Shown in pieces: positions 1 to 16,359 of a stretch of DNA of 16,467 bases; the first letter of the stretch is position 1, and each line of letters opens with the position of its first letter. Both the position numbers and the translations under genes were made by a program. The stretch lies in contig JARBTY010000042.1 of assembly GCA_029239935.1 (NCBI GenBank), positions 1-16,467 of the forward strand. Direction: 5' to 3'. Under the pieces are notes generated by a model. The model saw only the letters and a program-made list of their open reading frames with translations. It was not told the DNA's origin and did no database searches. The DNA is from Clostridia bacterium. GTDB lineage: Bacteria; Bacillota_A; Clostridia; Lachnospirales; Cellulosilyticaceae.

Positions 1-607
1 GGATACCCTCTTTTTTATATATTTCAATGGCCTCGTCTCCCCCAAAGCCTTTAGCGATACCTCCTAAATCAATAACCTGTCCTTCATCCCGCAGCATAAC
101 CTGATCTTTTTCTTTATCCAAATCTATTTTTTTATAATCGACCAGCTTAAGTAACTCCTCTATTTTTTCATCCTTTGGAACCTCTGGATGCTCTGTAATA
201 ATGCCCCATTCTTTTACTAATGGACCTATTGTAATATCAAAAGCGCCATGGCTCAGGGCAGCATAGCCTATTGCTTTTTCGATAACATAGACGGCGTCTT
301 TAGTCAGTTTGACCTGTTTTTTTCCTGCATAGTCATTTAACTGATTGATAACTCCACCTGCTGTATTGATAGTCATAGATTTTTCGAGTTCTTTAAGTCT
401 ATCTGATACTTTACCGGCTACCCGCTCTGCTTCATCGCCATAAACCCTTTGGGATATTGTGGTTCCCATAATAAACTCTTGAATCTCAAAAGCATCTGAA
501 CTTACTGTTTTAGTGTTTTTCACTATTTCCTGCTTGGTGTTACTTGTATTACACCCGCTTAATATTATTGTAAGTACTGTCAGTACCATGAATTTTTTTA
601 CGTTCAT
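1..607 (-). CDS. apbE: ApbE-type FAD:protein FMN transferase, lipoprotein (partial, C-terminus beyond left edge)
   Basis: This family moves FMN from FAD onto a Ser/Thr of exported target proteins, on the outer face of the membrane, using Mg2+. About 202 residues are visible, read on the minus strand from the ATG at 607. They begin with a lipoprotein signal peptide with the lipobox LSGC (Cys19), so the enzyme should be anchored outside the membrane. Family signatures follow: IMGTTISQRVYG (the usual N-terminal MGT segment), GAFDITIGPLVKEWG (about residues 133-147) and DLGGIAKGFGGDEA near the left edge. The C-terminal metal-binding half is cut off, so catalytic integrity cannot be judged. The start has a good Shine-Dalgarno (AAAGGGTGG). 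It lies 117 nt downstream of the giant FMN-binding-domain protein on the same strand, which is almost certainly its substrate. Confidence 0.93.
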   Translation of the reverse strand, partial: MNVKKFMVLTVLTIILSGCNTSNTKQEIVKNTKTVSSDAFEIQEFIMGTTISQRVYGDEAERVAGKVSDRLKELEKSMTINTAGGVINQLNDYAGKKQVKLTKDAVYVIEKAIGYAALSHGAFDITIGPLVKEWGIITEHPEVPKDEKIEELLKLVDYKKIDLDKEKDQVMLRDEGQVIDLGGIAKGFGGDEAIEIYKKEGI

Positions 608-655
608 AATCCACCCTTTTAATATTTTATCTCTCTACAGTTGTAACATAACAGA

Positions 656-681
656 GCGGATACCTATTCTATAGGCTCCGC
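656..681 (-). other. Stem-loop in the spacer between the surface flavoprotein gene and apbE
   Basis: On either strand two nested arm pairs form a hairpin: GCGGA (656-660) with TCCGC (677-681), and CCTAT (663-667) with ATAGG (671-675), with a 3-nt loop and a small asymmetric bulge between the arm pairs. No U-run follows it in the direction of transcription, so it is not a typical terminator. It may adjust apbE expression or stabilise mRNA ends after processing; this is inference. Confidence 0.5.
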
Positions 682-724
682 CTTCTGCTACATTGATCTG
701 CAAACTATCAGATAAGCTCTGCTT

Positions 725-3700
725 TTATTCAGAAATAAATTCTAATTGATCCAGTACATTCTTTAGGATAGCTGCTGCCTCGCCTCTTTTTGAAGTTGCC
801 TTAGGTTTAAAGCTGCCATCTTCAGTTCCTTTTACAATTTGTGCTTTTGCCGCATACTCAATTGATTTTACAGCCCAGCTACTCATCTCTTTTTCATCAA
901 TAAAAGGCACATAGTCAAACTGTGTATCCCCTTCTTCTTCAGAAGTATCCGGTTTTGCGTCTGCTAATGCATTTTTTACAGCCTTCATAGCTGCTTCTCC
1001 AGAAATTGTTGCTCCTGTAATCATATCAACTTCTTCTGACTGTGCTTTAATGATTCTCTTCATTGTCTCATCAACAGCTATATCTCCCAGATGAGCAGTC
1101 TCATGCATCTCTGTTAAATCAATTTTTTTAATCTTTCCTGCAGCAATGGTCACTTTAACACGAAGCGGTGTCCCATAAAATCCTGGTGCACTGCCTTCAT
1201 ACGTACCATCTTTCCATTGATCTGCTATCTGCTCTTCACTAGTTGTTTCTATTTGAGACTCTTGTACAATATCTATTGCTCTAGTTGCCATAACAACCAT
1301 TTCTTCTCTGGTAATCAGGTTATTAGGTCCAAAGGTATCTTTGCTGATGCCGCTTACAATACCACTAGCATACGCTGTATACACATCTTTTTCATACCAG
1401 CTGCCTGATACTATGTCTGAAAAAACTGCTTCATTTTGGCCAACTGTTTTTAAACCAAGTCCTCTGACTAACATGCATGTAAACTGTGCTCTTGTTAAGG
1501 AAGCTTCTGGCTCAAAAGTATCTCCGGTTCCTTTTAATATCATTTTAGAAGCAAGCAGCTCAATCACATTTTTTCCCCAATGGTTTTCAATGTCATTAAA
1601 GCCTTTTTTATTTTCGATGATACTATATAAACTATTTGAATTACGTTTAATCACCGCAATAGTCTTATTATCCTCTATTCTGAAGGTCGTTGGAACAGGC
1701 TTAAAGCTTCCCCCTTCAAATACAGCCCCTACACTTGTTTTAAAGTCTAGGATATCATCTATCACAATACTTCTCTCAATATACTGTTTACCAAAATCAG
1801 AGAGTATCACTTTTTCATTTTTAAATTCTACCTCTAAAGTATAGTCTACAGGTTCAGTTAACAATTTATAATTCTCTGTCATTTCTTTGGTTGCTTCTGT
1901 TTTTTCAATATGCAGGCTGAAGTTGACCATTTCTCCCTTGTCTTTAGACAGTTCCTCTAACGCTTTGAGTTGGTACGGTATTTTGTACTCTCCACCTGAA
2001 TAAGCAATACTAAGTGAACTTTTATTACTCTTCATAGCTTTGTAAGTTTCATTTTCAAGCTTTATCTCAAAGTTTGTAATATCTTCCGGCATAAGTACCT
2101 TGATTTCTTTAAGCTTGTTATTCTCTTTCAAGAGAGCTGCTAAGTGCTCAGCCGTAATTTTCAATGTTGCCTTGCCGGAAGCATCTTTTGTGATGTAAGA
2201 CTCTAGTTTGAGTGTGCCTTCCTCTGGGATAACAAGTACAGGTGTACTCCAGTCACCGGAAGATGTGGCTCCTGACCCAGTGTCTACTGGATCCTCTTCT
2301 TTAATGAGTGAATCCTTTAGTTTCATAAGTCCCTTTTTATGAGAAAGTATAAAAGAGTCTTTATCATACTCAATACTTTTAGGATCTTCTGCTATCATAT
2401 TGGCTGGCAGCGTACTCATCATCTTTAAACTGCCCTCATTCATGTAATAGACTTGCATATTTTTACTGATTACATAAAGTCTGTCTTCTACAGCCATGAT
2501 CTTTCTGCCTTCCCCATCAAAACCTGCCACTTGAACCCAGCTACTTTGATCACTAAGGGTTGTTTTCCATAAACCACTTTTACCTGTCACATAAAGTGTA
2601 TCCTGTGTATGATAAATGTCCCACACATCTTTGCCTTCTTTAGTGAGTCCCTCACTTTTAAACGGCACCCATGTCACCCCGTCCACTGAAGTAAGAAGTC
2701 CTTGCTTTTTAGTAGATAAATACCATTTACCCTCTATACTATAAAGCTTTCTTGCATCGTATTCACTTTCCTTTTCAGGATTTACAGGCAGATTATTATT
2801 ATAAACTGTCCAGGTTTTACCTCCATCTGTTGAGCGGTATAACCCATATTTATTAACAATGGCAATCATCTCATTTTCTGAGCGTACTAACAGTGACTCC
2901 ACCTTTTCAGAAGCTAAGCCTTCATGCACCACAGGCTCACTCCAAGTCTCTCCGCCATCATGAGTCACTAGTATGCTGTTGCCGTCTTTTCTTCCTATCA
3001 AATAAATGGTTTGTGTATCAGGTACTCTGTAGCCACTTTCTATCGCAGGTATGTTGTGAAGTTTAACTTCACTCTTTCCATCTGCATCCACTAATTGGGC
3101 TGTTGAGGTCTTTTCATCTCCATTTTTATTCACATAAAGATATTTGTTATTAACAACTGTTACAAATACGCCTTCATTACCATCTGCAATTAATTCTTTC
3201 CAATTGGCATCTGCAAGATCTTGTACAAATTTTGTACCTTCCAGTGCATTAATAGCCGCTCTTAAGACCCCTCTGCTTGTTTCTGTTGCACCTGAAACAG
3301 TATCTACATCCAGCGCCTGCTCTTTGATGATATTTTCTGGAACAACTCTTAATGCTTCAGCCACTTTATCAGAATGGTCATATCCTGATACTGATTCGTT
3401 GTGTGAAACAATTTCAGCACTTATAATCTGATCGCCATTCACTGTGATTTCAATGACTATCCCTTCATTTCTGCCTTTTCCAGTTCCTTGATATACAATA
3501 ATATCAACGCCCTCTTGCTTCCTTGGCACTATCACCTCAATCTCTTTTGTCAAAGCTGTATCTGTACTATCTGTTTCATTTATAATCCTAAAAATAAGTT
3601 TTACCGTTGTTTCCATGTCTGGTGGTGTTATCGTGCCATCCAAAGCAATAACATCTTCTCTGTCCGATTCATAAAGCTCAGCTTTATAACCATTAGGTAC

Positions 3701-5974
3701 CTCAGGCATTTCAAGTTGTGTTTTATTAATACCTGGGGCTTTAACACTGGTAATACTCTCTGCTACAGCATCTGCTGTCCATATCCTATACTCTTCTTGA
3801 ATAAGGAATACCCCTTTTTTATGGGCTGCAATAATCTGTCCATTATCATATTTGATATCTTTAAGCTCCTCTATCTTCAGACCCTCTGGCTGATTGGTAA
3901 ATGGTCTTAAAACACCAGTACTATCTACATAATAAATATTCGCATTACTTTTGGCAGTTACATAAATACGTCCATTGACACTTAGGATATTTTTAACCTC
4001 ATCAGTAAGCCCCTCTACTTTTGTAAAACCTTGACTTTCTTGGGATAAGTCTGTTTTATAAAGTCCTTCTTTAGTGGCAATCCACAGCATGTCGCCATCT
4101 GTTGCTACTTCGAATATTTCTTTGGACTTTTCACTTGTCAATCCATTTCCACTTTTAACCTGTGTGAAAACTTCTCCGTCTTCTGATATAAATATACCCT
4201 GTTTTTTAGTGGCTACATAATACTTGCCATTATATTTCCACATCCCCCTTGCTTCATAGTAAGTTAGAAGCACATCATTTTTTGTGCTCCAAGTCATCCC
4301 GGCATCAGCTGAATAATAAATGCCTTTTTTGTCTCCCAGTAAGAGATAAATCTCTAATCCTTCTACAAATAAACCCTCTATTTTGATATCACTGATACCA
4401 CTTGGCAGAGTAACCCCTGTTTCAAGCAGATTAGTCCAGTTATTTCCTGCATCTTCACTTTTATAAAAGAACTGACCTTTTTTATTTCCTACTATGTAAA
4501 CTGTATCGCCCTCTTGATAAGCTGCATCAACTTCTTTAATATCTGTTAGTGTATCCGTCCATAAAAGGTCCTCTGAATCAGATGCTGTTGTACTTACAAT
4601 AGAGTTGTCATCACTTTTTCTTATCAATAAATACTGACCCTTTCCAAACACAAAAATATGTGTACCATCTTTAGTATCAGGGCCTATCTCCTGCCAAGTC
4701 ATCGAATTTCTGTAAGATTCAAATAACATAATTGCCACATTTAATGTTTGATAAGCCCCATCAATTTCTTCTTGCACCTGCGCTTCATCTCTTATAGTTT
4801 CCGCTTGACTTATGGCACTAAGGAGTTCATCTTTTGCGCCTTCCTGATATTCCCCAGCACCGCTGCCTTCCACTGCTCCTTCATATTTTGTCTGTGCTAA
4901 CGTAATCAATTCATCGAGTTGACTGAGCTGAAGACCGTCTTCTTCTGGTTGTTCTCCCGGTTCTTCTTCACTATCAGGGATTTGGACTTTAAGTACTCCC
5001 TTTTTATGAGAAACTACGAGATTTTGGCCATCATAAGCCATGTCTTTTATGTCATCTACCGTTATACCATCAGGTTTATTTGTAAATGGCTGTAAAGTCC
5101 CTGTTTCATCAATAGTGTAAATATTATTTGTATCTTTACCAGTTAGATAAAGCGTCCCCTCTGCATTAATAATGTTTTTCACCTCATCACTAAGTCCCTC
5201 CAGCTTTATAAAACCTTCGCTGTCATCCTGTAAATCAGTGGTGTACACCCCATCTTTAGTTGCCGCCCACACTTTATCATCTTCTGCAAAAACTTCAAAT
5301 ACTTCTTTACCGCTGCTGCTCAGACCGTTCCCGCCTTTAAGCTGCGTAAAGCTATCTCCATCCTCTGATATCAGTACCCCTTGCTTTTTAGTGGCAACAT
5401 AATATTTTCCATCGTATTTCCACATCCCTCTTGCCTCATAAGAAGTTGGGATTGAATCATTTTTAGCACTCCATGAAGCTCCCCCATCTGCTGAATAATA
5501 AATACCTTTTTTATCACCTGCCATAAGATAAATTTCTGAGTCTTCAACATATATGGCCTCTGTTTTAGTCCCGCTTATTTGTGATGGCAATGTACTGCCT
5601 TGCTCTAGGAGGTTTGTCCAGCTATCCCCTTGGTCAGAGCTTTCGTAGAATGAAAAGCCTTGTTTGCTCCCTACAACGTAAACTGACCCCGTAGTAGTTT
5701 GCCACGCACTATCAATTTCACTGATACCAGATAAGGCTGCGCCCCATCCATTTTCATTTCCTGTATAAACTGTAGACTTCTTATCATCCTTTTGAATAAG
5801 TATATACTCCCCGCCTGATGCAAAAACTTGCGTTCCCTCTTTGCTGCTTGGCCCAATTTCTAACCAAGCATCCCCTGTCGCTGCAAATGTACTACTTGGC
5901 ATGCCTATCCAAATATTTGCTATCAACATCAAGACCAACATCATACTTATTTTCTTATGAAATTTCTTTCTCAT
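725..5974 (-). CDS. Giant S-layer-anchored multi-propeller flavoprotein with two FMN-binding domains
   Basis: A 1749-residue exported protein. Order of parts: signal peptide (1 to about 31, ending STFA); propeller 1 (about 34-330); acidic linker and helical FIVAR-like segment (335-425); propeller 2 (426-728); Ig-like segment (730-815); FMN-binding domain 1 (818-905); propeller 3 (912-1215); a beta-rich domain (1240-1455); SLH 1 (1458-1510); SLH 2 (1517-1570); FMN-binding domain 2 (1587-1672); SLH 3 (1689-1747). The propellers carry Asp-boxes such as SADGGASWS (161-169), as in YCF48/sialidase BNR repeats. Flavinylation motifs are DTVSGAT (acceptor Thr897) and DMITGAT (Thr1656). SLH domains bind the secondary cell-wall polymer. 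Inferred role: cell-surface redox protein carrying two covalent FMNs, served by the adjacent apbE. There is no CxxCH heme motif. The ATG at 5974 has AGGAGAGG 9 nt upstream. Confidence 0.92.
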   Translation of the reverse strand: MRKKFHKKISMMLVLMLIANIWIGMPSSTFAATGDAWLEIGPSSKEGTQVFASGGEYILIQKDDKKSTVYTGNENGWGAALSGISEIDSAWQTTTGSVYVVGSKQGFSFYESSDQGDSWTNLLEQGSTLPSQISGTKTEAIYVEDSEIYLMAGDKKGIYYSADGGASWSAKNDSIPTSYEARGMWKYDGKYYVATKKQGVLISEDGDSFTQLKGGNGLSSSGKEVFEVFAEDDKVWAATKDGVYTTDLQDDSEGFIKLEGLSDEVKNIINAEGTLYLTGKDTNNIYTIDETGTLQPFTNKPDGITVDDIKDMAYDGQNLVVSHKKGVLKVQIPDSEEEPGEQPEEDGLQLSQLDELITLAQTKYEGAVEGSGAGEYQEGAKDELLSAISQAETIRDEAQVQEEIDGAYQTLNVAIMLFESYRNSMTWQEIGPDTKDGTHIFVFGKGQYLLIRKSDDNSIVSTTASDSEDLLWTDTLTDIKEVDAAYQEGDTVYIVGNKKGQFFYKSEDAGNNWTNLLETGVTLPSGISDIKIEGLFVEGLEIYLLLGDKKGIYYSADAGMTWSTKNDVLLTYYEARGMWKYNGKYYVATKKQGIFISEDGEVFTQVKSGNGLTSEKSKEIFEVATDGDMLWIATKEGLYKTDLSQESQGFTKVEGLTDEVKNILSVNGRIYVTAKSNANIYYVDSTGVLRPFTNQPEGLKIEELKDIKYDNGQIIAAHKKGVFLIQEEYRIWTADAVAESITSVKAPGINKTQLEMPEVPNGYKAELYESDREDVIALDGTITPPDMETTVKLIFRIINETDSTDTALTKEIEVIVPRKQEGVDIIVYQGTGKGRNEGIVIEITVNGDQIISAEIVSHNESVSGYDHSDKVAEALRVVPENIIKEQALDVDTVSGATETSRGVLRAAINALEGTKFVQDLADANWKELIADGNEGVFVTVVNNKYLYVNKNGDEKTSTAQLVDADGKSEVKLHNIPAIESGYRVPDTQTIYLIGRKDGNSILVTHDGGETWSEPVVHEGLASEKVESLLVRSENEMIAIVNKYGLYRSTDGGKTWTVYNNNLPVNPEKESEYDARKLYSIEGKWYLSTKKQGLLTSVDGVTWVPFKSEGLTKEGKDVWDIYHTQDTLYVTGKSGLWKTTLSDQSSWVQVAGFDGEGRKIMAVEDRLYVISKNMQVYYMNEGSLKMMSTLPANMIAEDPKSIEYDKDSFILSHKKGLMKLKDSLIKEEDPVDTGSGATSSGDWSTPVLVIPEEGTLKLESYITKDASGKATLKITAEHLAALLKENNKLKEIKVLMPEDITNFEIKLENETYKAMKSNKSSLSIAYSGGEYKIPYQLKALEELSKDKGEMVNFSLHIEKTEATKEMTENYKLLTEPVDYTLEVEFKNEKVILSDFGKQYIERSIVIDDILDFKTSVGAVFEGGSFKPVPTTFRIEDNKTIAVIKRNSNSLYSIIENKKGFNDIENHWGKNVIELLASKMILKGTGDTFEPEASLTRAQFTCMLVRGLGLKTVGQNEAVFSDIVSGSWYEKDVYTAYASGIVSGISKDTFGPNNLITREEMVVMATRAIDIVQESQIETTSEEQIADQWKDGTYEGSAPGFYGTPLRVKVTIAAGKIKKIDLTEMHETAHLGDIAVDETMKRIIKAQSEEVDMITGATISGEAAMKAVKNALADAKPDTSEEEGDTQFDYVPFIDEKEMSSWAVKSIEYAAKAQIVKGTEDGSFKPKATSKRGEAAAILKNVLDQLEFISE

Positions 5975-6001
5975 CTGCCTTTTCCTCTCCTCTATACCAC
6001 T

Positions 6002-6034
6002 TTATTTTCCATCTGCTTGATTGCGCACTTTCAT
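6002..6034 (-). CDS. Possible 10-residue leader ORF ahead of the surface flavoprotein gene
   Basis: A short ORF, MKVRNQADGK, lies in the 5' leader, preceded by AAGAAGGG six or fewer bases before its ATG. It ends 27 nt before the start of the giant gene. The spacing and ribosome site would permit translation, but it is too short to show codon bias, so it may be chance. If translated it could influence ribosome loading on the main gene. Confidence 0.25.
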   Translation of the reverse strand: MKVRNQADGK

Positions 6035-6086
6035 AATCCCTTCTTTTACTTGCTCTCTTATGCTCCCTCCCTTTTAACGATGATTT

Positions 6087-6101
6087 TAATATTCATTCTC
6101 A
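6087..6101 (-). promoter_or_regulatory. Fur-like box 2 in the leader of the surface flavoprotein gene
   Basis: Minus-strand TGAGAATGAATATTA matches 11 of the 14 defined positions of the 7-1-7 Fur consensus TGATAAT-N-ATTATCA. It lies 113 nt upstream of the start codon and 76 nt downstream of the first Fur-like box. In AT-rich DNA a lone match of this quality would be weak; the pairing with box 1 makes it more credible. Confidence 0.5.
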
Positions 6102-6176
6102 TTTAACTACTTAAATAAAGAGTTCCTTAAGTTTTATTTGCCAAATTTAAGAAACCCTCTATTTATACTCGGAGAA

Positions 6177-6191
6177 AACGATAACGACTAT
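6177..6191 (-). promoter_or_regulatory. Fur-like box 1
   Basis: Plus-strand ACGATAACGACTATC lies inside a wider imperfect palindrome (6174-6198) flanked by GAAAA and TTTTC. The 15-mer at 6179-6193 (CGATAACGACTATCA) agrees with the Fur 7-1-7 consensus at 11 of 14 defined positions. It sits about 18-30 nt downstream of the predicted transcription start of the giant gene, a position suited to repression by iron-loaded Fur. PerR or Zur boxes are related, so the exact regulator is uncertain. Confidence 0.65.
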
Positions 6192-6215
6192 CATTTTCCA
6201 TTAATTTCATTTTGT

Positions 6216-6244
6216 ATTGTAAACTACTTGTCGCTTCCTGTCAA
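6216..6244 (-). promoter_or_regulatory. Promoter of the surface flavoprotein-apbE operon
   Basis: On the minus strand a perfect -35 TTGACA (6239-6244), a 17-nt spacer and a -10 TACAAT (6216-6221, 5 of 6) form a strong sigma-A-type promoter. Transcription should begin near 6209, giving a leader of about 235 nt that contains both Fur-like boxes and the small leader ORF. Confidence 0.75.
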
Positions 6245-6318
6245 TTAAAAGAATAAAAATACATAGATATCTCTAAAACAGCTTATAAAACAAAATAATT
6301 CTTTAGCAATTCACCGCA

Positions 6319-6347
6319 TTGACAAGATGCAGTGATTAAGCTAACAT
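6319..6347 (+). promoter_or_regulatory. Promoter of the Old Yellow Enzyme-like gene
   Basis: The -35 TTGACA (6319-6324) is perfect, followed by a 17-nt spacer and a -10 TAACAT (6342-6347, 4 of 6). The expected start is near 6354, some 35-40 nt before the gene. The Fur-like boxes lie more than 120 nt upstream, so iron control of this divergent gene is not implied. Confidence 0.6.
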
Positions 6348-6387
6348 AAGGTTAATTAGATTTTTATATTTAAATAGGAAAGGATGT

Positions 6388-7485
6388 ATGCCCATGAAAA
6401 CCTTATTTTCAGAAATTAAACTCAAAAACTTAAAAATCAAAAATAGGGTGGTAATGCCTCCTATGGTAATTTTTAAGCATGTAACAGCGGATGGATTGAT
6501 TGCAAAAGAACATATTGCCCATTATGAAGAAAGGGCCAAAACCGGAGTTGGCCTCATTATTGTTGAAGCAGCCTGCGTCAACAAAGAGGGCCGATTAGCA
6601 CCTAGGCAGCTTGGCTTATGGTCAGATGCCTTTATTGAGGGACTACAGGAAATCCCAAAGGTCTGTCACAAGTATGGTGCTAAGGTCCTTATCCAGCTGC
6701 ATCATGCCGGAGCCAAAACACCGCCGAGTGTATGCTCTGACAGCGTTTGTCCCTCTTCTTTTGAGACACTTCTGTCTCCTGATGCCCCGTCCGTTCAGAC
6801 CAGAGCACTCACCCTTAGTGAAATTCATAACTTGCAAAATGACTTTGTGGATGCTGCCATCAGGGCTAAAGAAGCTGGATTTGACGGTATAGAACTACAC
6901 GGAGCTCATGGCTATTTAATCAATCAATTTTTTTCTCCCCTTATTAATAAACGAAAAGATTCATACGGCGGAAGTCTTGTGAACCGTGCTAGATTTGCCG
7001 TTGAAATCATTACTGAAATCAAACAAGTTGTGGGAAATGACTTTATTATTGGCTGTCGGATGGGCTGTAACGAACCCGATCTTCAAACCTCTATTGCCCT
7101 TGCTAAGTTATTAGAAAATGCTGGCGTTCAATTGCTCCATATCTCCTTTGGTTCCGGGCCGAGTCTTAATTTTTCTTCTCCATCATTAATGACAGCTTGT
7201 CCTGACTTTGACTATAGCTGGGTGGTTCATGGCGGAACTGAAATGAAAAAACATTTAAAGGTTCCTGTCATTGTCGTTTTTGGTATTAGAAAACCCGAGG
7301 AAGCTGATGCACTTATCAAAAATAATCTAGCTGATTTTACAGCTGTTGGAAAAGGGTTATTGGTGGATCCTGCTTGGGCTGAAAAAGCTCAAAAAGGCGA
7401 AGTCATTGCTTTTTGTCGGAGCTGCAAAAAATGCTTGTGGTTTCAATCCGAGGATCTGTGTCCAGCCAGAAGAGCCGTCCAATAG
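6388..7485 (+). CDS. Old Yellow Enzyme-family FMN-dependent ene-reductase/NADH oxidase (single TIM barrel)
   Basis: A 365-residue cytosolic flavoenzyme of the OYE family, which reduces activated C=C bonds or related substrates with FMN and NAD(P)H. Visible motifs: KIKNRVVMPPM at the N-terminus, IQLHHAG (101-107), HGAHGYLINQFFSP (171-184, with His171, His174 and Tyr176 at the usual substrate-binding/catalytic positions) and NKRKDSYGGSLVNRARF (187-203). The C-terminus carries Cys343, 346, 349 and 358 (CxxCxxC-x8-C). This resembles, with altered spacing, the [4Fe-4S] motif of 2,4-dienoyl-CoA reductase relatives, but the FAD/NAD-binding domains of those enzymes are absent and the protein ends soon after. 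Start: ATG at 6388 or ATG at 6394; the AGGAAAGG at 6376-6383 is 4 nt from the first and 10 nt from the second, and MKTLFSEI is the typical family start, so 6394 is quite possible. Substrate unknown. Confidence 0.9.
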   Translation: MPMKTLFSEIKLKNLKIKNRVVMPPMVIFKHVTADGLIAKEHIAHYEERAKTGVGLIIVEAACVNKEGRLAPRQLGLWSDAFIEGLQEIPKVCHKYGAKVLIQLHHAGAKTPPSVCSDSVCPSSFETLLSPDAPSVQTRALTLSEIHNLQNDFVDAAIRAKEAGFDGIELHGAHGYLINQFFSPLINKRKDSYGGSLVNRARFAVEIITEIKQVVGNDFIIGCRMGCNEPDLQTSIALAKLLENAGVQLLHISFGSGPSLNFSSPSLMTACPDFDYSWVVHGGTEMKKHLKVPVIVVFGIRKPEEADALIKNNLADFTAVGKGLLVDPAWAEKAQKGEVIAFCRSCKKCLWFQSEDLCPARRAVQ

Positions 7486-7639: not shown

Positions 7640-9226
7640 TTATCCTCTCGCCCATCGTGCTGGATACCATTTTTGAAACCATGATGTAAAAATGCCCATA
7701 AGCGCTGGCAGAGCGGAATTGATTAAACCTATGTAGGGCGAAAAGCCGGTGTCCATCAGCATATAAGTCCAAATCGGGGTGACAAGATATAATCCGCCCC
7801 AAGCGGCGGTCAATATGCGATTTGTACTAATAAAAAGTGGATTTTCAAAAGCTTTTTCTTCTCCATAGTTCGCTGCGCTGTAATGGGCGGTCAGCGGTAT
7901 TTGGGGAAATGCGCCGATTGTCCATATCAGTCCAAAAATCAAATAGCTACCGGAAACCACAAGTCGTATATCCGTACCGAATAAAACTGCCAGCGAAAGC
8001 CCCGCCACAATTGGTACACTGATTTGCTCATAGACAACAGGGCGAAACACAAGCCACAGTAATGGAACAGATGCTGCTATGACAATGCCTATTGTACCGC
8101 CGACAACAGGGTTTATCGCTATTGCTGTCCAAATGGCTATCCACGGCATGAGAAGAACCATCATATTGGTTTTACGCTTTAACTTAATATCATTTGACTT
8201 TGAGGGTGTGTGGGTGCCAAACAGTTCATCCCACCTCAGCATGAGGTTAAAATCCCCGAGGACTTTATAAAGCCGCTGAAACAACGCATCCTGTCCGGAA
8301 ATTTCATTGCGGGCAATGGAACTCCAAACCGAGTATGGCGTTTCAATTCTTGTGGTATATGGTTTGAAACCATCCGTTATAACTTCTGATCCTTGCTTCG
8401 TCAACAAAATTTGATAGGTTTTGCCAATGTCAGTATAATGAAACTCCACTACACGCTCCACACCGTCCGGCTTATATAAAGCCGCCATCTGGGTTGTAAA
8501 ATTGAGGCTATTGTCTGCCGAAATGCCCGAATCTCCTTCCTTTGAAATCCCCCATGAAGCGTTCGCCATTTTTTCAAATGAATCCCGTGGATATAAGGGT
8601 GCTGCAAGTTCCTTCTGTGTCTCGGGATGAATTCCTCCGCCAGCATATTCTGCCCCTGCACGGCGGACGATTTCCAAATAGGCGTCCGTGCGACTTTTCA
8701 GTTCTGGCCCCCGAAACAACTCTCCTTGGCCGCAAAAAATGGTCGTGTAGTTGCCATTCCCGAAAAAGTGGTCAAACATAGGGATTACGGCGTCATAATT
8801 CCCTTTTGCTGTCCAAAAGCCACAGGTGGAAATAACAAGGCGTTTTTGCTGTACTAAATTATAGCGGGACGGATGCCCTCCACTCTCAGTTTCTTCCGCC
8901 ATAAACGGCAGATTAAGAGGGAGTTGCCTATCGATGAGATTTTTCATTCCTCCAGGAATGCCGAAATAATAGAGTGGAAAAGACCACACAATCACATCAG
9001 CGGCAATTATTTTGGCGAGTATTTCCGCCATTCCGTCATTTATAACACACTTTCCCGGTGTTTTATTCCAACATGCAAAGCACCCCAAACAGCCTTTTAC
9101 ATGAGCTTTTCCCACATCAATAATTTCTGCGTCTGTCCATTCAGCCCCGTTCAGAAATGCGTGGGTAAGGTTCATTGTATTGCTGCATTCACTTTTAGGT
9201 GAACCGTTCAAAACCAGAATTTTCAT
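7640..9226 (-). CDS. Iron-sulfur flavoprotein-SCP2-membrane domain fusion protein
   Basis: A 528-residue fusion. Residues 1-200 are a flavodoxin-like NAD(P)H-dependent FMN reductase domain: LNGSPKSECSNT binds the flavin phosphate, and Cys46, 49, 52 and 60 form the CX2CX2CX7C pattern of iron-sulfur flavoproteins that hold a [4Fe-4S] cluster. Residues about 240-335 look like an SCP2 lipid-binding domain. Residues about 352-525 hold about six hydrophobic segments. The enzyme would therefore be tethered to the inner face of the membrane, perhaps reducing a quinone-like or lipophilic substrate or xenobiotic; the substrate is not known. The ATG at 9226 overlaps the padR stop codon as ATGA, with AGGAGG 8 nt upstream inside padR, so the two are translationally coupled and probably co-regulated by PadR. 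The 7640-9783 segment has visibly higher G+C than the genes around it. Confidence 0.85.
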   Translation of the reverse strand: MKILVLNGSPKSECSNTMNLTHAFLNGAEWTDAEIIDVGKAHVKGCLGCFACWNKTPGKCVINDGMAEILAKIIAADVIVWSFPLYYFGIPGGMKNLIDRQLPLNLPFMAEETESGGHPSRYNLVQQKRLVISTCGFWTAKGNYDAVIPMFDHFFGNGNYTTIFCGQGELFRGPELKSRTDAYLEIVRRAGAEYAGGGIHPETQKELAAPLYPRDSFEKMANASWGISKEGDSGISADNSLNFTTQMAALYKPDGVERVVEFHYTDIGKTYQILLTKQGSEVITDGFKPYTTRIETPYSVWSSIARNEISGQDALFQRLYKVLGDFNLMLRWDELFGTHTPSKSNDIKLKRKTNMMVLLMPWIAIWTAIAINPVVGGTIGIVIAASVPLLWLVFRPVVYEQISVPIVAGLSLAVLFGTDIRLVVSGSYLIFGLIWTIGAFPQIPLTAHYSAANYGEEKAFENPLFISTNRILTAAWGGLYLVTPIWTYMLMDTGFSPYIGLINSALPALMGIFTSWFQKWYPARWARG

Positions 9227-10565: not shown

Positions 10566-10946
10566 CTAATTTTTTTTAATCTCATCAGATATATCAATCA
10601 TGTATGAGCGGGTGGGTGTTTCACTCATTTCTATAGATAAAAGCAACCAGCCTTTTTGAACGAGAATTTTTTGAAAAGCTTCTTTAAAATAGATACAAAT
10701 ATTTTCAAGAGTCGGATTTAAGGTGATAAAAGGAGAGATTTTATTGAGGTAGCGATCTTGAAAACTTTCTAAATATTTTTCCATATCCTTTTCTATAGCA
10801 TTGAAAGTAATAAAATCCTCTTTTACCTTAATGGTTTGAATGGTAATTTCCCATGTATGGGGATGCTCCTCCCCCAATTGCCCATCAATATAGATAGAAT
10901 GTGTTGCATTGAGATAAAATTTGAACCGGTATTGATTGTATTTCAA
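10566..10946 (-). CDS. 6-pyruvoyl-tetrahydropterin synthase-related protein of exosortase-G loci
   Basis: A 126-residue member of the 6-pyruvoyl-tetrahydropterin synthase/QueD fold. The three zinc ligands are visible: His16 in ATHSI, and His28 and His30 in EEHPHTWEI. PTLENICIYF matches the conserved PTxE segment. The catalytic Cys that normally sits about six residues before the HxH pair is absent (Gly22 region), so ordinary synthase activity is unlikely. A small family of this kind is known to occur beside Gram-positive exosortases (TIGR03112, as I recall), with no established function. The start is TTG at 10946, overlapping the upstream stop as TTGA, and is supported by AAGGAG about 9 nt upstream. 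It is the last gene of the locus. Confidence 0.8.
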   Translation of the reverse strand: MKYNQYRFKFYLNATHSIYIDGQLGEEHPHTWEITIQTIKVKEDFITFNAIEKDMEKYLESFQDRYLNKISPFITLNPTLENICIYFKEAFQKILVQKGWLLLSIEMSETPTRSYMIDISDEIKKN

Positions 10947-11392
10947 AGTGTTACATCTCCTTTACTGCTGCAGCTAGTACCCATCAGTTTATAGATATAT
11001 TTTCTGATATAATAAAGTATAAAAAACGGAACAACTACAGAAACCCCCTTACTGAATAAAAACTTAAAGGTTTCTGGTAAAAAATAGAATAATTTGTGAT
11101 AACTGATACTAATGAGCCCGCCGGCTAAAAAAATTCCTAAGATAAATGTCCCCACATAAACTATGAAACCAATAGCTCCATACTCTGTCTGAAACACGGA
11201 TTGTGAAGACAAAATATAATGAATGAAAAATCCTAAAATCATACCTACAGTATTGGCATATACTAGTTCCACTGCAAAATGATTCATTAAGAGCCATACC
11301 GCAGCACTGTCAACGATTGTAACTGCCACAGAATACATCAAGTACTTTGTAAATGGACTGGCGGTTTTGAGTGCTTTCATTAGATTAGGCAT
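10943..11392 (-). CDS. GtrA-like four-helix membrane protein
   Basis: A 149-residue protein with four predicted membrane helices at about 15-38, 42-62, 75-97 and 108-130. The segment VTIVDSAAVWLL and the VGMILGFFIHYILSSQSVF stretch fit the GtrA family (N-terminal helix pair, then GxxxxFxxNYxxSxxxVF). GtrA-type proteins are thought to flip polyprenyl-phosphate-linked sugars across the membrane or assist the glycosyltransferases that make them. Here it would pair with the polyprenyl-phosphate-type glycosyltransferase of the same locus. Its start overlaps the end of the degenerate-GGDEF gene by 8 nt, indicating one operon. The positively charged C-terminal tail is cytosolic. Confidence 0.8.
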   Translation of the reverse strand: MPNLMKALKTASPFTKYLMYSVAVTIVDSAAVWLLMNHFAVELVYANTVGMILGFFIHYILSSQSVFQTEYGAIGFIVYVGTFILGIFLAGGLISISYHKLFYFLPETFKFLFSKGVSVVVPFFILYYIRKYIYKLMGTSCSSKGDVTL

Positions 11393-12605
11393 AGTTCACC
11401 TCATCTCTTAAAGCAGACCTTTCTCTATCTAGACTATTCTTAGCTTTTTCAAGTGTCTCAAACAATGTCCCTGTTTCATCTGTTTTAACTGCAATGCCGC
11501 AAGGCATCTGTGCTATGGATTGTCCAAAATTCTCATATGCCTTTTGTCTGATATACTGCATACGCTCACCAGCTGATTCTTCATTTGAGTTATTCATAAT
11601 CACTGCCAATTCATTTTCATTGATGCGTGCTAAGATGTGTGTTGCGTCACAGCTTCTTTTAAATAACTCCACTGTTTGTTGCAATAGTCCAGCATTTTTT
11701 GCAAGACTTAAATCCACTGTCATAACCGTTACTGGAAGCAGTAATTGACTCTTCATATTGGCAAGCATTTTGTTTAGGAATACCTCATTATACACACCGG
11801 TCTCACTATCATGGGTGCTTGCTGCTTCTGCAATTTGTGTCATCGTTTTGATTTGACTTGCAAAATCTTCTATTTGTACATTTTTTTCTCTGATTTCTTT
11901 TTTAAATCGATTGGTTGTTTGGGCTGTCTTAAAAATGTAAAGTGAAAACCCTACACCAAGTACAATAATCGCTACAGTAAATAATCCGCTGATCAATGAG
12001 AGGCTTATAAAATGCTGTTGTGCTGAAACTGTAGTTAAGAAATAATCTTCTAAAGTTGAAATCCCTATCCTATAAGTCTTACCTTGTTCTTCAAAGAAAA
12101 ACCAAGAGATAATTTCTTTACCTGTTTCATTATCTTTAATGATCTCACTTGTTCCGCTGATACCCTCGTTCATAAGCTTTTGCATGTCTTCTGTCTGACT
12201 TCCGCCTGCATATTTCCATGCCTCAAAAACTTCATTTATCGTTTTATCTTGATAGGCTTCCGTGGTTAGGATGTCTTTTTCAAATAAAACAGCATCCTGT
12301 CCGTAAAAAAATATATATCTGTTTTGAGAATTTGTTTCTTTTTGAATCACTTCACTTATAACTTTGCTTTCTGCCTCAGCAGCAGACATTCCTTCATTCA
12401 TATATTCTGCTAAAGCTTTTTGCACTTGATCTGAAAATTGACTGTTAAATCTATATTGCTCCTCGGCAAAAGCTTCAACTAACTGGCTGCGGTGACTGCT
12501 TACTTGATAAAAAATAGCGGCCCATGCTGCTGAAATCAAACCTAACCCTAAAATGCAAATACTAAATATTTTAAATAAATATTTATGCTGTCTGTTATTT
12601 TTCAT
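11385..12605 (-). CDS. Membrane sensor-like protein with degenerate GGDEF domain
   Basis: A 406-residue protein. Helix 1 (about 12-33) and helix 2 (about 200-225) flank an external sensor-like region of about 165 residues. A coiled coil (about 235-262) follows, then a GGDEF-like fold (about 266-400) beginning DSETGVYNEVFLNKM, equivalent to the DxLTGLxNR start. The active-site loop that should read GG[DE]EF is NENEL (329-333 within RINENELAVIM), so diguanylate cyclase activity should be lost. It may bind nucleotide or act only as a signalling scaffold. The main Shine-Dalgarno (GAGGGG) is about 13 nt from the ATG at 12605, unusually far, and lies inside a small upstream ORF. Downstream it overlaps the GtrA-like gene by 8 nt. 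Confidence 0.75.
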   Translation of the reverse strand: MKNNRQHKYLFKIFSICILGLGLISAAWAAIFYQVSSHRSQLVEAFAEEQYRFNSQFSDQVQKALAEYMNEGMSAAEAESKVISEVIQKETNSQNRYIFFYGQDAVLFEKDILTTEAYQDKTINEVFEAWKYAGGSQTEDMQKLMNEGISGTSEIIKDNETGKEIISWFFFEEQGKTYRIGISTLEDYFLTTVSAQQHFISLSLISGLFTVAIIVLGVGFSLYIFKTAQTTNRFKKEIREKNVQIEDFASQIKTMTQIAEAASTHDSETGVYNEVFLNKMLANMKSQLLLPVTVMTVDLSLAKNAGLLQQTVELFKRSCDATHILARINENELAVIMNNSNEESAGERMQYIRQKAYENFGQSIAQMPCGIAVKTDETGTLFETLEKAKNSLDRERSALRDEVNYA

Positions 12606-12607
12606 GG

Positions 12608-12640
12608 TCAGTACCAGTCCCCTCTTTTAAAGTTACTCAT
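12608..12640 (-). CDS. Possible 10-residue leader ORF coupled to the degenerate-GGDEF gene
   Basis: MSNFKRGDWY is encoded from the ATG at 12640 and stops 2 nt before the ATG of the next gene. An AAGG lies upstream of it, and its codons contain the GAGGGG that would serve the next gene. Termination and re-initiation could couple the two. Too short for statistical support. Confidence 0.3.
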   Translation of the reverse strand: MSNFKRGDWY

Positions 12641-12797
12641 GCGCTAAATCCTTGTTTTTTTATCTTTTTATATTAAACACACACCAATCTACTTCTAGTA
12701 AAATATCAAGGTGAATTTGAGCAAACTAAAAAACATTTATATCTTTTCCTAGTATAATTAAGTCGACGAAAACATTAACCACGGCAGGATTATATAA

Positions 12798-13079
12798 ATG
12801 TTTGATGACCTCATTATAAACGATTCTTTTGACATAATCAAATTTCTAAATAAACTGAACCTTGACTTATCTTATACTTGGCCTCAGTTAAAACATATTA
12901 TAGTCATTGTCATAGCTATGGTAATCAAAGACTTCAACAGAAAACTATCTGATATTAATGAACTTACTAATCCTCACCATTATACAAGAATTGGCAAATT
13001 CCTAAACACTAGTCCATGGCATAAAAAAGATTACAGTTTATCATTATATCTTTTTCATTTTTTTAAGGTTAATCACTAA
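12798..13079 (+). pseudogene. Truncated transposase remnant (N-terminal fragment)
   Basis: An ORF of 93 codons whose first about 78 residues resemble the N-terminus of DDE transposases of the IS4/IS701 type: SFDIIKFLNKLNLDLSYTWPQLKHI, then the pattern RKLSDINELTNPHHYTRIGKFLNTSPWHKK. The catalytic DDE region is missing. After residue about 78 the reading frame turns low-complexity and runs antisense into the 3' end of the glycosyltransferase gene, so the element was lost by deletion. A TATAAT at 12753-12758 and GGCAGG before the ATG may be the old expression signals. I could not find terminal inverted repeats. It is the only plus-strand coding trace in the exosortase-G locus and separates the locus into two blocks. 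Confidence 0.6.
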
Positions 13080-13808
13080 CTTAAGACTGTTAATCGACGT
13101 TCTGAGCACTTTCATCTTGCTTGCACCTTCTTTAAAATCATATCTGAGCTCAAAGGGCACCTCCTGAAAGACTGCGCCGCAGACATACAGCTTGTATAAA
13201 AGTTCTGTCATGCAGGTAAAACCACTTTCCTCTATCATTTTATCCCTAAATCTTTCACTCAGCTTCTCTAAGATTTCTCTTTTATAAAGTCTGTAGCCAC
13301 AGGTATAATCTCTTATTCCTTTGACATGAAGCGCTGTTAAATAAATGTACTTTGCAGCCTGTCCAGTAAAACGCCTAAATCTTGAAAGACCCTTTATTGA
13401 TGCCCCTTTTTGATATCTGGAGGCTATAACAACATCTGCTTTTGTAATCTGTTGTTTGGTTAACATCTCAATGATATATTTAGGATCGTGGGTATTGTCA
13501 CAATCCATCACACACACATAGCTGCTATCTAGCTGGTTTTTTAGAACATAGTCAAAACCAGTCTTTAGTGCCTCCCCTAGTCCCTTATTTGTTTTGTGGT
13601 TGATCAGTATAAAATTTTCATAGTTCTTTTGAAGTTTTTCAGCGATGACCTTTGTCTGATCACTACTCCCATCATTGACTACTACTATCTTGAGTCCAAG
13701 GCTATAATGGGTTTGTAACGTATCTTTATACCCTTGCCACCTTCTAATAAGCTCATTTAAGTTTCCTTCCTCATTGTACGCAGGTAAAACAACTGTCAGT
13801 TCACTCAT
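13044..13808 (-). CDS. GT2 glycosyltransferase, polyprenyl-phosphate sugar synthase type
   Basis: A 254-residue family 2 glycosyltransferase without clear membrane helices, like dolichyl-phosphate mannose synthase (DPM1). Motifs: VVLPAYNEEGNL (6-17), VVVNDGSSDQT (42-52, nucleotide binding), GLGEALKTGFDY (77-87) and MDCDNTHDP (101-109, where Asp102 and Asp104 form the metal-binding DxD). YTCGYRLYKR is the acceptor-side motif typical of this subgroup. It probably transfers a sugar from a nucleotide sugar to undecaprenyl phosphate at the inner face of the membrane. The start ATG at 13808 has AAGGAG about 10 nt upstream and overlaps the upstream gene by 8 nt. The C-terminus is rich in Lys (LKKMKKI). 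Confidence 0.9.
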   Translation of the reverse strand: MSELTVVLPAYNEEGNLNELIRRWQGYKDTLQTHYSLGLKIVVVNDGSSDQTKVIAEKLQKNYENFILINHKTNKGLGEALKTGFDYVLKNQLDSSYVCVMDCDNTHDPKYIIEMLTKQQITKADVVIASRYQKGASIKGLSRFRRFTGQAAKYIYLTALHVKGIRDYTCGYRLYKREILEKLSERFRDKMIEESGFTCMTELLYKLYVCGAVFQEVPFELRYDFKEGASKMKVLRTSINSLKLVINLKKMKKI

Positions 13809-15180
13809 TGTTGATTCTCCTTTTTACTTTACCTATTATTTTAAATACTTTATCAAAATCAGATTTAACAATCTGACTAAAAATGGTGTATTCTTCTTTT
13901 AAGTTCAAAGTCTTCCATTGACTTTCTCCTTTTATACTGTTGATGATCCCTGCAAAGCGTATCCAAAAAACAATAAAGTTAAACGCCGGCATTAGCAAAA
14001 CAATATAACCTTTTGAGGTGTAATACCTTCTAATATCCTTATACGATTTGAGATAAGCTCTGACATTAAGATAGAAAAGAAAAGCTGAAAAAACGTAAAG
14101 CAGATAAATAATAAAGACTGACCCTGCAATAAGCTCAAAAGGATAATTCATAAAAAGTAAAAAGATAAGTGCAAAATACCAAATCATCCTTGGAAAAGCA
14201 AAAGTGTGGTCATACATCAAAAGTCTCACCATGAAATTGCTGAAAAATCCTTTAAAAGCAGCCATCTTATCTTGCAAAAACATGTGCGAAACCTCAATCT
14301 CACCTCTTTGCCAACGCTGTCTTTGAGTATAAAGCTTATCAAATCCTTCTATAGGATCTACAAAAAACAAAGCATTTTCACACAAATGGATATTTTTTTT
14401 AAGCAGATGTCTCATTTGAAAAGTAATATGCGTGTCTTCGCATACTGTTTCACTATTATAAAGCTGTGTTTTTAATACTGCTGACTTCCTAAAAGCTGAA
14501 AAGGCTCCTGATAAGGTATAAATACTATTCATCTCGGACTCAAAGTTTCTGCCTGCTAAAAATGCCTGTGCGTATTCAAAAAGTTCACACTCCCTAAGTA
14601 TCCTTAAGAAGATATTTGGGGTATCTTGAATATACCTTTGATCTGTAAGGATAACCCCCGTCATACAGTGCACATCTTGGTTTTGCTCAAATCTCACCAC
14701 AACATTTTTGATGGCATCTTCTCCTAGCTGTCCATCACTGTCAATATGCATAATGTATTTCCCGCCGCTGTTAAAAAGCGCCATATTCAGTGCCTTGGAC
14801 TTACCTTGCTTAGAACTCAGATACCTGAGTGACAATCCCTTAAATTCCTTTTGGCAGTCTGAAAATATTTCAAAACTGTTATCACTGCTCATATTGTCAA
14901 CAAGCATGATATCTATAAGCTCCATGGGGTAATCAGACAGATAAATAGACTGAATGCACCCTCTAAGAGTTTTGGAGGAATTGTATACTGGAATGATGAT
15001 GGTTATTTGAGGCAGGCTGCCTTCAAAAGGATGCTTTTTTATCGCAAACCTCTTTTTTATTAGGATAAAGAAGCCGCCGACCGCTGGAATAATCTCCATG
15101 ATAAATGGGATGATAATCCATGCCATCCAAAAAATCATTGCTCTTAGGGTTTTACTGAATAGGATCTCCATATGAAACAT
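13801..15180 (-). CDS. Exosortase-G-associated processive-type glycosyltransferase
   Basis: A 459-residue membrane GT2 enzyme like cellulose or hyaluronan synthases. An N-terminal helix (about 12-40) precedes the catalytic domain: VYNSSKTLRGC, VDNMSSD (Asp95), HIDSDG (Asp147 and Asp149, metal-binding DxD), CEDTHITF (Glu248/Asp249, catalytic base region) and QRQRW (286-290). At least three further helices follow (about 305-395). A family of this type is known beside XrtG in Firmicutes (TIGR03111, as I recall). It would polymerise or add sugars at the membrane; the product is unknown. The start ATG at 15180 lies 29 nt inside the XrtG gene and has AAAGG upstream. Met4 (15171) is an alternative start but is less well spaced. 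Confidence 0.88.
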   Translation of the reverse strand: MFHMEILFSKTLRAMIFWMAWIIIPFIMEIIPAVGGFFILIKKRFAIKKHPFEGSLPQITIIIPVYNSSKTLRGCIQSIYLSDYPMELIDIMLVDNMSSDNSFEIFSDCQKEFKGLSLRYLSSKQGKSKALNMALFNSGGKYIMHIDSDGQLGEDAIKNVVVRFEQNQDVHCMTGVILTDQRYIQDTPNIFLRILRECELFEYAQAFLAGRNFESEMNSIYTLSGAFSAFRKSAVLKTQLYNSETVCEDTHITFQMRHLLKKNIHLCENALFFVDPIEGFDKLYTQRQRWQRGEIEVSHMFLQDKMAAFKGFFSNFMVRLLMYDHTFAFPRMIWYFALIFLLFMNYPFELIAGSVFIIYLLYVFSAFLFYLNVRAYLKSYKDIRRYYTSKGYIVLLMPAFNFIVFWIRFAGIINSIKGESQWKTLNLKEEYTIFSQIVKSDFDKVFKIIGKVKRRINNE

Positions 15181-15748
15181 GACCTACCTTTTGTCTTTTA
15201 ATATGTGATCTGGTAAATACATAAAAATATAATACGATGGATAATGTGTAAAAAATAACTCTTCCAAAAATCGTATGGGCAAAATAAAACATGTTGTTGC
15301 CGTAATAATAAACAAGTATACAGATTGTAAAAATCCTGAGTATATTCGCCATAAAAATCCAAACGGTTCCGAGAGCTGTAACAACTATTTTTTCCAGAGT
15401 ATTATAGATTGGAAAAAACCATACAAGCGCTGTAAAGGCTAAAATCTCAATAACACCCGCACACTCATAATCAATATAAAGTGATATTGCTTCTTGGTTT
15501 CTGGATATAACGATAAGTGAATAGTCATGGAAGGTTTGATAATACCCGGTGGCATCTCCAACGATGCCTGAGACCACCGTCACCATCCTACTTAGTACAC
15601 TTACAAGGTACGGTTCAAAGAAAATCATCAGGAAAAAGAATAAGCCAACCGCTCCAACAACAAATTTAAAAAAGTGAAGCTTTCCCCGCTCAAACGTAAT
15701 CAGTATATACAACCATAAGACAAATAATGAACTTTTTAAAATAATCAT
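15152..15748 (-). CDS. xrtG: Exosortase family protein XrtG
   Basis: A 198-residue polytopic membrane protein with about six helices. The exosortase triad is present: Cys96 in DYECAGVIE, Arg138 in ANILRIF, His158 in YFAHTIFGR. The family is thought to cleave C-terminal sorting signals in the membrane, by analogy with sortases. The position beside a Firmicu-CTERM protein and a dedicated glycosyltransferase matches the Gram-positive exosortase group (TIGR03110, as I recall). The start ATG overlaps the stop of the CTERM gene (ATGA, 15745-15748), and no strong ribosome site is visible, so translation is probably coupled. This fits stoichiometric production of substrate and processing enzyme. Confidence 0.92.
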   Translation of the reverse strand: MIILKSSLFVLWLYILITFERGKLHFFKFVVGAVGLFFFLMIFFEPYLVSVLSRMVTVVSGIVGDATGYYQTFHDYSLIVISRNQEAISLYIDYECAGVIEILAFTALVWFFPIYNTLEKIVVTALGTVWIFMANILRIFTICILVYYYGNNMFYFAHTIFGRVIFYTLSIVLYFYVFTRSHIKRQKVGHVSYGDPIQ

Positions 15749-16359
15749 TGTATTTTGTTTCGCTTTCTTTTATAAATAAACATTCCTAGTCCCGCTGCCG
15801 CTGCACTGATTAAGATACCCATATAAGCATAAGTGCTGCCTGCCTGAAAGCTTAGGGATTGGCTGCCCAAATTCGGAAACTCTAATCTTAAAGTAAACAT
15901 CTGGTTATTGGCATCCTTTTCAAAAGTGGATAAAGGAATACGAAATTCAGCTTTGTCGCTGGTTTTGCCGTTATTATTGCTTCCTCTTACGACGTATCCA
16001 TCAGTTGTTAAAAAATTATAACCACCATTGGTATCGATAATAGAAACACGACCACCACTTGGATTATCAGGCGCCAGCGCCAGCTGTTTGCGATTGCCAT
16101 TATCTACATAATAATAAATCTGATAATAGCCTATATTTTGTCCACCCTTAGTACCCATTTGAATATGCAGATAGAGATCTGTATCGCTGACGTACCACTT
16201 AACCGTATGGGCCTGTCCTGGGTTATTCCACTGATAGCTTAACTGCGTCCCCGGTTTATCTGCCCAATCATCAAAATAGCCGTCAAGACTGATGCTTGCT
16301 GGCGCCCCATAGGTGATGAGTGGGATGCACATCCACATCAGTATGATTATCTTTTTCAT
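15745..16359 (-). CDS. Firmicu-CTERM sorting-domain protein (predicted XrtG substrate)
   Basis: A 204-residue exported protein. The signal peptide spans about residues 1-18 (ending TYGA). The mature part opens with ISLDGYFDDWADKP, typical of Firmicu-CTERM proteins (TIGR04145, as I recall), and continues as a beta-rich domain reminiscent of carbohydrate-binding family 9-like folds, with a segment WYVSDTDLYLHIQMG. The C-terminus carries the sorting signal: a small-residue-rich membrane helix (about 177-197, YAYMGILISAAAAGLGMFIY) followed by a basic KRKRNK tail. It is the likely dedicated target of XrtG encoded next to it. The ATG directly follows the stop codon of the upstream gene, and its AAAGGG ribosome site lies within that gene's 3' end. 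Confidence 0.85.
   Translation of the reverse strand: MKKIIILMWMCIPLITYGAPASISLDGYFDDWADKPGTQLSYQWNNPGQAHTVKWYVSDTDLYLHIQMGTKGGQNIGYYQIYYYVDNGNRKQLALAPDNPSGGRVSIIDTNGGYNFLTTDGYVVRGSNNNGKTSDKAEFRIPLSTFEKDANNQMFTLRLEFPNLGSQSLSFQAGSTYAYMGILISAAAAGLGMFIYKRKRNKIQ

Follow-up and report, generated by a model that had tools for sequence, protein, structure and literature searches.

Predicted flavinylated proteins at the bacterial surface

In Gram-positive bacteria, flavin-based extracellular electron transfer (EET) is represented by PplA and FmnB of Listeria. Multi-flavinylated gene clusters have also been described, and Meheust et al. (2021; PMC8238504) mention large proteins bearing S-layer homology (SLH) domains in them and cite Fur-repressed flavinylation clusters of the PepSY type that are tied to iron reduction. 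Flavinylation has been shown for FMN_red proteins, with sites predicted, in a model, on a C-terminal extension that lacks structure (Huang et al., 2024; PMC11334425), and in the trypanosomatid fumarate reductase FRDg the motif is placed at the extreme N-terminus (PMC8065229); DUF2271 and DUF3570 are described as flavinylated without a domain that binds flavin mononucleotide (FMN). The subject of the present analysis is a stretch of 16,467 nucleotides from a Clostridia bacterium (contig JARBTY010000042.1; the whole stretch is called the window), in which a minus-strand open reading frame (ORF) at 725-5974 encodes a 1,749-aa protein of the secreted type with a signal peptide, designated P0001. 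Its sequence shows a secretion signal, an SLH anchor and two FMN_bind domains, each with an ApbE motif; a third, conserved motif lies in a linker that the structural model leaves disordered, and a Fur-like box stands at the promoter. An initial annotation of the window had drawn attention to the protein but overlooked the third motif, DTGSGAT at residues 1231-1237, and the location of FMN domain 2 between SLH repeats 2 and 3.

Judged from sequence, P0001 may be a Fur-repressed, S-layer-anchored multi-flavin protein that would carry electrons out of the cell envelope to ferric iron outside the cell and so serve iron uptake, a reading of about even confidence. Attachment of FMN by ApbE is very likely at Thr897 and Thr1656, in the two FMN_bind domains, and is somewhat favoured at Thr1237 in the linker. 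The observations of the initial annotation were confirmed and its interpretation, an iron-responsive surface flavoprotein with its own ApbE, was partly supported.

Architecture of P0001

The Pfam scan of P0001 identified two FMN_bind stretches (protein-level E 7e-27) and three SLH stretches (E 3e-33), and with more than one FMN_bind domain the protein has the domain layout of multi-flavinylated proteins. From the N- to the C-terminus, the signal peptide is followed by beta-propeller 1 (residues 34-331; 4982-5875, here and below on the minus strand), a 2jnk-like module (residues 351-421; 4712-4924), beta-propeller 2 (residues 423-728; 3791-4708) and a stretch ending in FMN_bind domain 1 (residues 827-912; 3239-3496), after which come beta-propeller 3 (residues 923-1222; 2309-3208), a short linker (residues 1225-1254; 2213-2302), a module common to many SLH proteins, SLH repeats 1-2 (residues 1457-1569; 1268-1606), FMN_bind domain 2 (residues 1589-1671; 962-1210) and SLH repeat 3 (about residues 1692-1735; 770-901). 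FMN_bind domain 2 is thus inserted between SLH repeats 2 and 3. The motif scan placed DTVSGAT at residues 891-897 (Thr897; 3284-3304) and DMITGAT at residues 1650-1656 (Thr1656; 1007-1027), so that the two complete FMN-binding domains originally noted, with these motifs and threonines, stand.

The limits of the FMN domains were set by Pfam and by an iterated profile that started from three seed domains and took in its own matches; domain 1 is folded in the AlphaFold2 (AF2) model, and domain 2, also recovered in that model, matches PDB 8p2b over residues 1591-1673. The model covers residues 810-1749 and was built from a 5-sequence alignment, with a predicted local distance difference test (pLDDT) score of 71 and a predicted template modelling (pTM) score of 0.38. 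SLH repeats 1-2 are supported by a PDB match to Sap over residues 1457-1566, and repeat 3 by the third Pfam SLH stretch and an alignment with the protein of locus L036. Pairwise identity among the three aligned propeller segments is 29-55%, propeller 1 being 55% identical to propeller 2 and 29% identical to propeller 3 and having DUF6242/BNR matches; propellers 2 and 3 were delimited by propeller-to-propeller alignment, and the AF2 model gave PDB propeller matches including YCF48 (TMt about 0.7), presumably over propeller 3. The earlier description of an S-layer protein with three propellers is therefore upheld. The module between propellers 1 and 2 resembles part of a hyaluronidase (phmmer, PDB 2jnk, E 7e-5) and is presumably the one named FIVAR. 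No Cys follows the signal sequence, as it would in a surface lipoprotein of the PplA type, and SLH repeats are present instead. Membership of the RnfG or NqrC families was rejected, the RnfG models scoring 34 of 205 and 18.9 of 102 bits and the NqrC model 17.1 of 336, far under the cut-offs.

A family of predicted S-layer flavoproteins

Protein and genome searches recovered at least ten proteins with the order FMN1, linker, module, SLH-SLH, FMN2, SLH, namely P0001, P0003 (93%), P0004 (locus L001; Anaerosolibacter carboniphilus, 48%), P0005, P0069 (locus L020), P0071, P0076, P0188 (locus L037), P0189 and the protein of L036. The L020 protein and genome G016 are assigned to Thermotalea metallivorans by inference, the linker context of P0069 and of the G016 protein being identical. 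The protein searches scored only the candidates with the most words in common, and the matches considered were the best 120 of 142 and the best 120 of 631, so members may be missing; other proteins combining SLH and FMN_bind, such as P0013-P0019 and P0118, are among the matches listed. When up to three candidates per genome were scored, query A2 matched at E ≤ 1e-60 in 9 of 393 order-level genomes and 2 of 391 class-level genomes, and a match over the FMN2 part was obtained in four of the 393 (G001, G016, G123 and G103). Six of the 16 genomes in the family of G001 matched P0001 at E ≤ 1e-30, the flavin protein being present in G001 and G016, and no additional member was found in the families of G123 and G103 (the same 20 genomes). 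A plasmid search matched 43 records, none over 80% of the query; among the 20 listed, the matches were mostly to SLH parts.

Because six members (P0001, P0003, P0004, P0076, P0189 and L036) have N-terminal propellers and four (P0005, P0069, P0071 and P0188) have invasin-like N-terminal domains ahead of the same flavin/SLH part, the N-termini have evidently been swapped while that part stayed. The initial annotation had suggested an architecture search for SLH, FMN-binding and propeller domains with a linked apbE; the domain combination is common to the six propeller-bearing members, and none of the four further loci that were read has a linked apbE. Six of the ten members have both FMN-domain motifs intact (P0001, P0003, P0004, P0005, P0069 and P0071). 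In a tree of the module, the flavin proteins form four branches (P0001/P0003/P0004; P0005/P0069/P0071; P0076/P0189/L036; P0188), the last of which groups weakly (70/73) with flavin-free proteins. Given this weak placement and the shared ancestry of the ten members, the flavin proteins need not be one clade, and counts taken over them are not independent.

A flavinylation motif in the linker

The third motif of P0001 (Thr1237; 2264-2284) falls outside both FMN_bind domains, in a linker whose pLDDT is below 50 throughout and, at ~24 over residues 1230-1249, the lowest of the AF2 model. A Dxx[ST]GA[ST] motif in an accessible, unstructured stretch, as the 5-sequence model has it, is what flavin-tag substrates offer, and as a tag, a seven-residue peptide of this form is reported to be all that ApbE requires (PMC12052999). 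The linker motif looks like a natural flavin tag. Its loose form, D..[ST].A[ST], occurs in the linkers of all ten members, and the strict form, D..[ST]GA[ST], in eight of them with 12 strict copies in total: DTGSGAT also in P0003, three DGTSGAT in P0004, DTVSGAT in P0005, P0069 and P0071, DTDTGAT, DTETGAS and DTTSGAS in P0189, and DTYTGAT beside the Gly-less DTNTKAT in P0188. L036 has two copies of DTDTSAS and P0076 has DTDTYAS.

Elsewhere the strict motif is confined almost wholly to FMN domains. Among 127 other FMN-domain proteins from the protein searches, many of them near-identical rows, 409 strict motifs lie inside domains and two outside, both in one repetitive protein; 169 FMN-free proteins (235,240 residues) contain two, and there is none in L021, L022 and L023, SLH relatives that have the same module and no FMN domain. 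A strict linker copy is present in members of all four branches of the module tree and tandem copies occur in three.

It is quite conceivable, if doubtful, that the linker holds no more than a remnant or by-product, an eroded FMN domain or a low-complexity repeat, that is not flavinylated and leaves only the two FMN domains at work. The linker is indeed of low complexity, the Gly has been lost from its motif in P0076 and L036, and the Asp/Gly/Thr repeats that form a long linker between FMN domains in P0124 (residues 590-800) include two DPGTGAT copies, perhaps by repeat-driven chance. Against this, the motif is kept in all four branches, with its tandem copies in three, while little else in the linker can be aligned among members, and shuffling of the 95-residue linker regions, which in P0005, P0069, P0071 and P0188 also contain the FMN1 motif, gave a strict motif in only 0.04-1% of cases and a loose one in 0.7-5.6%. 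Over seven codons, the two tandem copies of L036 show six silent changes and no replacement, and copies 1 and 3 of L001 show four and none, a silent-only divergence that points to selection on the residues and is likewise at odds with a remnant.

Natural flavin-tag arrays, in which ApbE would place one to three FMNs on the disordered linker in a small iron-controlled S-layer family, without a folded FMN domain of their own, and whose flavins would shuttle electrons along the cell surface as swinging redox arms or from a nearby pocket, are proposed tentatively, at a little short of even confidence. Several observations weigh against the proposed multi-flavin function, the linker flavin included. 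The loose motif is less special, with 39 occurrences in the 235,240 FMN-free residues, and the tandem copies of L037 and P0189 differ in residues. Gly is missing not only from the linker motifs of P0076 and L036 but also from the FMN1 motif of P0076, P0189, L036 and P0188, where N or K takes its place, and from the FMN2 motif of P0188. Since a Gly-to-Ala change in the tag motif is reported to leave about half of the modification (PMC12052999), some Gly-less sites, including those in the P0076 and L036 linkers, may work poorly or not at all. The same review gives flavin tags as best at termini and loop insertions less fully flavinylated, which also favours a remnant. As a separate observation, G103 encodes another FMN protein of four domains, the fourth of which has the motif DAITKAT.

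Promoter and Fur-like boxes

Upstream of the P0001 gene, a sigma-70-like promoter, TTGACA-17-TACAAT (6216-6244, minus strand), matches at 11 of 12 positions; it had been called strong and the match is good, while promoter-like sites in the region overall are no more frequent than chance (21 against 19.4 expected). Just downstream of the -10 hexamer lies a Fur-like box, GAAAATGATAGTCGTTATC (6180-6198, minus strand), which matches the 19-mer at 16 of 19 positions, a score with 0.01 occurrences expected in the window and reached in 3 of 200 shuffles. A second box at 6087-6101, put forward together with the first, was rejected as not above the background of such matches: the 15-mer pattern gives seven matches at 3 mismatches where 2.7 are expected, the two sites among them, and in the upstream region of the window the 15-mer does no better than chance (P 0.087).

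Boxes were found at all five orthologue promoters read, with 16 of 19 positions in the window, 17 in L001, 15 twice in L020, 17 in L036 and 17 in L037, the four other orthologues having been scanned over 400-440 bases at the gene start. A predicted Fur box that lies at the promoter and is kept in orthologues is what a Fur regulon would display, and together with the six members in which both FMN motifs are intact it supports, on sequence grounds, the idea of an iron-responsive surface flavoprotein. Across 14 loci (244,256 bases), nine matches of at least 16/19 fall at eight sites, all of which precede either an SLH-module gene or the FMN_bind lipoprotein gene adjoining the T. metallivorans gene, and no such box arose in five Markov replicates of the set. 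None of at least 16/19 is present at the loci of the four single ApbEs described below. Boxes of 15/19 also occur elsewhere, two in L001 and one each in L074 and L075, and the more distant or weaker relative L038 has none, its best site matching at 13 of 19.

Fur-like boxes also precede the genes of three SLH relatives in which no FMN domain was found, L021 and L022 (RCC1-type) and L023 (subtilase-type), which rules the box out as a mark of flavin domains only. Fur control seems to belong to this S-layer protein class, of which the flavin proteins would be one kind and, because flavin-free relatives share it, the box cannot by itself mark a protein as a ferric reductase. These boxes ahead of proteins with RCC1 or subtilase N-termini, and the alternation of propellers with invasin-like domains among family members, would fit an iron-regulated surface binding protein whose working parts are the propellers and SLH module, which would bind a ferric source, a substrate or a surface, with the flavins as accessories; by analogy, IlsA of Bacillus cereus is reported to be required for acquiring iron from heme and ferritin (PMC2777315). 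Such a protein is considered improbable, in that two FMN domains and a linker motif have been kept in all ten members despite the exchange of N-termini.

Among the flavin-free loci, in L022 (5166-12196) and L021 (657-6211), the gene of a Fur-boxed SLH/RCC1 protein is immediately followed by genes for the small and large subunits of a [NiFe] hydrogenase of the twin-arginine translocation (TAT) type, recognised by domain tests in L022 and by matching lengths and starts in L021; an iron-regulated hydrogenase operon associated with the surface is possible. The L023 gene (4924-10782) encodes a 1,952-aa subtilase with SLH repeats, and its promoter contains a Fur-like box that matches at 16 of 19 positions.

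ApbE and gene surroundings

The apbE gene starts 117 bases downstream of the P0001 gene on the same strand, with no terminator-like site found in window positions 1-6400, and is cut by the window edge (2-607, minus strand); the first 202 aa have a lipobox, read directly, and match PF02424 at E 4e-37, in agreement with the lipoprotein ApbE previously noted there. Its best PDB match is 7esa, which we take to be Listeria FmnB. The N-terminal 202 residues are 32-37% identical to the full-length single ApbEs of four related genomes, which are 42-66% identical to one another, so the window ApbE looks like a separate copy. Linkage to apbE was rejected as a family trait: each of the four other genomes has a single ApbE match, located elsewhere, and the notion of a surface protein with its own ApbE applies to the window only. 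At the single apbE genes of G123 and G103, divergent 580- and 577-aa proteins (L075, 5914-7656; L076, 6222-7955) each contain four Dxx[ST]GA[ST] motifs ~117 residues apart.

The absence of an adjoining apbE at all four other loci read speaks against the proposed surface relay, as do the boxes ahead of flavin-free relatives and the lack of a clear membrane electron donor among the eight window ORFs run through the family library. In T. metallivorans, an FMN_bind lipoprotein with its own 16/19 Fur-like box is encoded directly downstream of the gene and is a plausible membrane-side partner. The single apbE of A. carboniphilus adjoins genes for an FMN_bind lipoprotein and a Pyr_redox_2 protein (L024), and the same order is found in T. 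metallivorans (L074), where the oxidoreductase was judged from its sequence start.

Metal reduction is a property of T. metallivorans. A. carboniphilus is described as iron-reducing in a title (Hong et al., 2015, cited in PMC12016495), and sulfur compounds are given as acceptors (PMC12016495). Iron reduction by A. carboniphilus is in keeping with the proposed reduction of ferric iron for uptake. Together with the multi-flavin architecture of P0001 and the gene order of L024 and L074, the descriptions of A. carboniphilus would also suit respiratory EET, with the protein as the last, outward member of a chain that dumps respiratory electrons on Fe(III), sulfur or other acceptors. This is nevertheless unlikely: Fe(III) respiration yields Fe(II), which would keep Fur repressing, so that a Fur-repressed gene would be off just when it was needed for respiration, and the conservation of Fur-like boxes at five of five orthologues argues against a purely respiratory role.

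Further along the window, a fused protein with FMN-reductase/flavodoxin-like and SCP2-like parts, apparently membrane-spanning, is encoded at 7640-9226 with a PadR regulator just upstream, and 10566-16359 contains an exosortase XrtG gene, genes for a Firmicu-CTERM protein and a 6-pyruvoyl-tetrahydropterin-related protein, and two genes that by eye are glycosyltransferase-like.

Proposed function and comparison with known systems

Under the proposed ferric-reductase function, scarcity of iron would lift Fur repression and the surface relay would then be made and reduce ferric iron for uptake, passing electrons across the wall from a donor encoded elsewhere. The FMN domain between the SLH repeats would lie at the wall face and the propellers would offer an outward binding or scaffold surface. 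The linker flavin might swing between the domains as a tethered arm or dock in a neighbouring pocket, most simply that of FMN1, whose own motif is Gly-less in four of ten members; in these proteins it could serve the FMN1 pocket. If the linker is flavinylated, a natural protein-bound flavin need not occupy a domain that folds, and tethered flavins may be to cells what lipoyl arms are to some enzymes. The conserved Fur-like promoters would place a multi-flavin surface protein in iron acquisition and not in respiration.

Surface FMN_bind domains and an ApbE are shared with the PplA/FmnB EET system of Listeria, from which P0001 differs in being SLH-anchored rather than a lipoprotein and in its length of 1,749 aa. 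EetA, EetB and Ndh2 were not recognised among the eight window ORFs tested, in which they were not searched for by name, and the apbE is there, cut by the window edge. An SLH anchor is also found in IlsA of B. cereus. Like P0001, IlsA is described as an iron-regulated surface protein needed for iron acquisition (PMC2777315), whereas P0001 has flavin domains and no Pfam NEAT domain at E 0.01.

With the multi-flavinylated proteins described in PMC8238504 and PMC11334425, the present family has in common two or more FMN_bind domains, an extracytosolic location and large SLH-bearing proteins. Both multi-flavin clusters with SLH proteins and Fur-repressed flavinylation clusters are already known (PMC8238504), and the initial statement that the combination matches no characterised system was overstated. 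The family differs from these proteins in the conserved domain-free linker motif, the FMN domain between SLH repeats, the propellers or invasin-like domains and the Fur-like promoters at the orthologues read. A motif outside FMN_bind is shared with flavin-tag peptides (PMC12052999), FMN_red tails (PMC11334425) and fumarate reductase (PMC8065229), as these reports describe them, but here it lies in an internal S-layer linker, is in tandem in several members and has no non-covalent flavin domain recognised beside it. Literature searches covering open-licence PMC papers turned up none that names a natural linker flavin tag or SLH-flavin protein of this kind. What is new is an S-layer protein with an internal linker whose motif is conserved, domain-free and, in several members, tandem, together with Fur-like promoters at every orthologue read.

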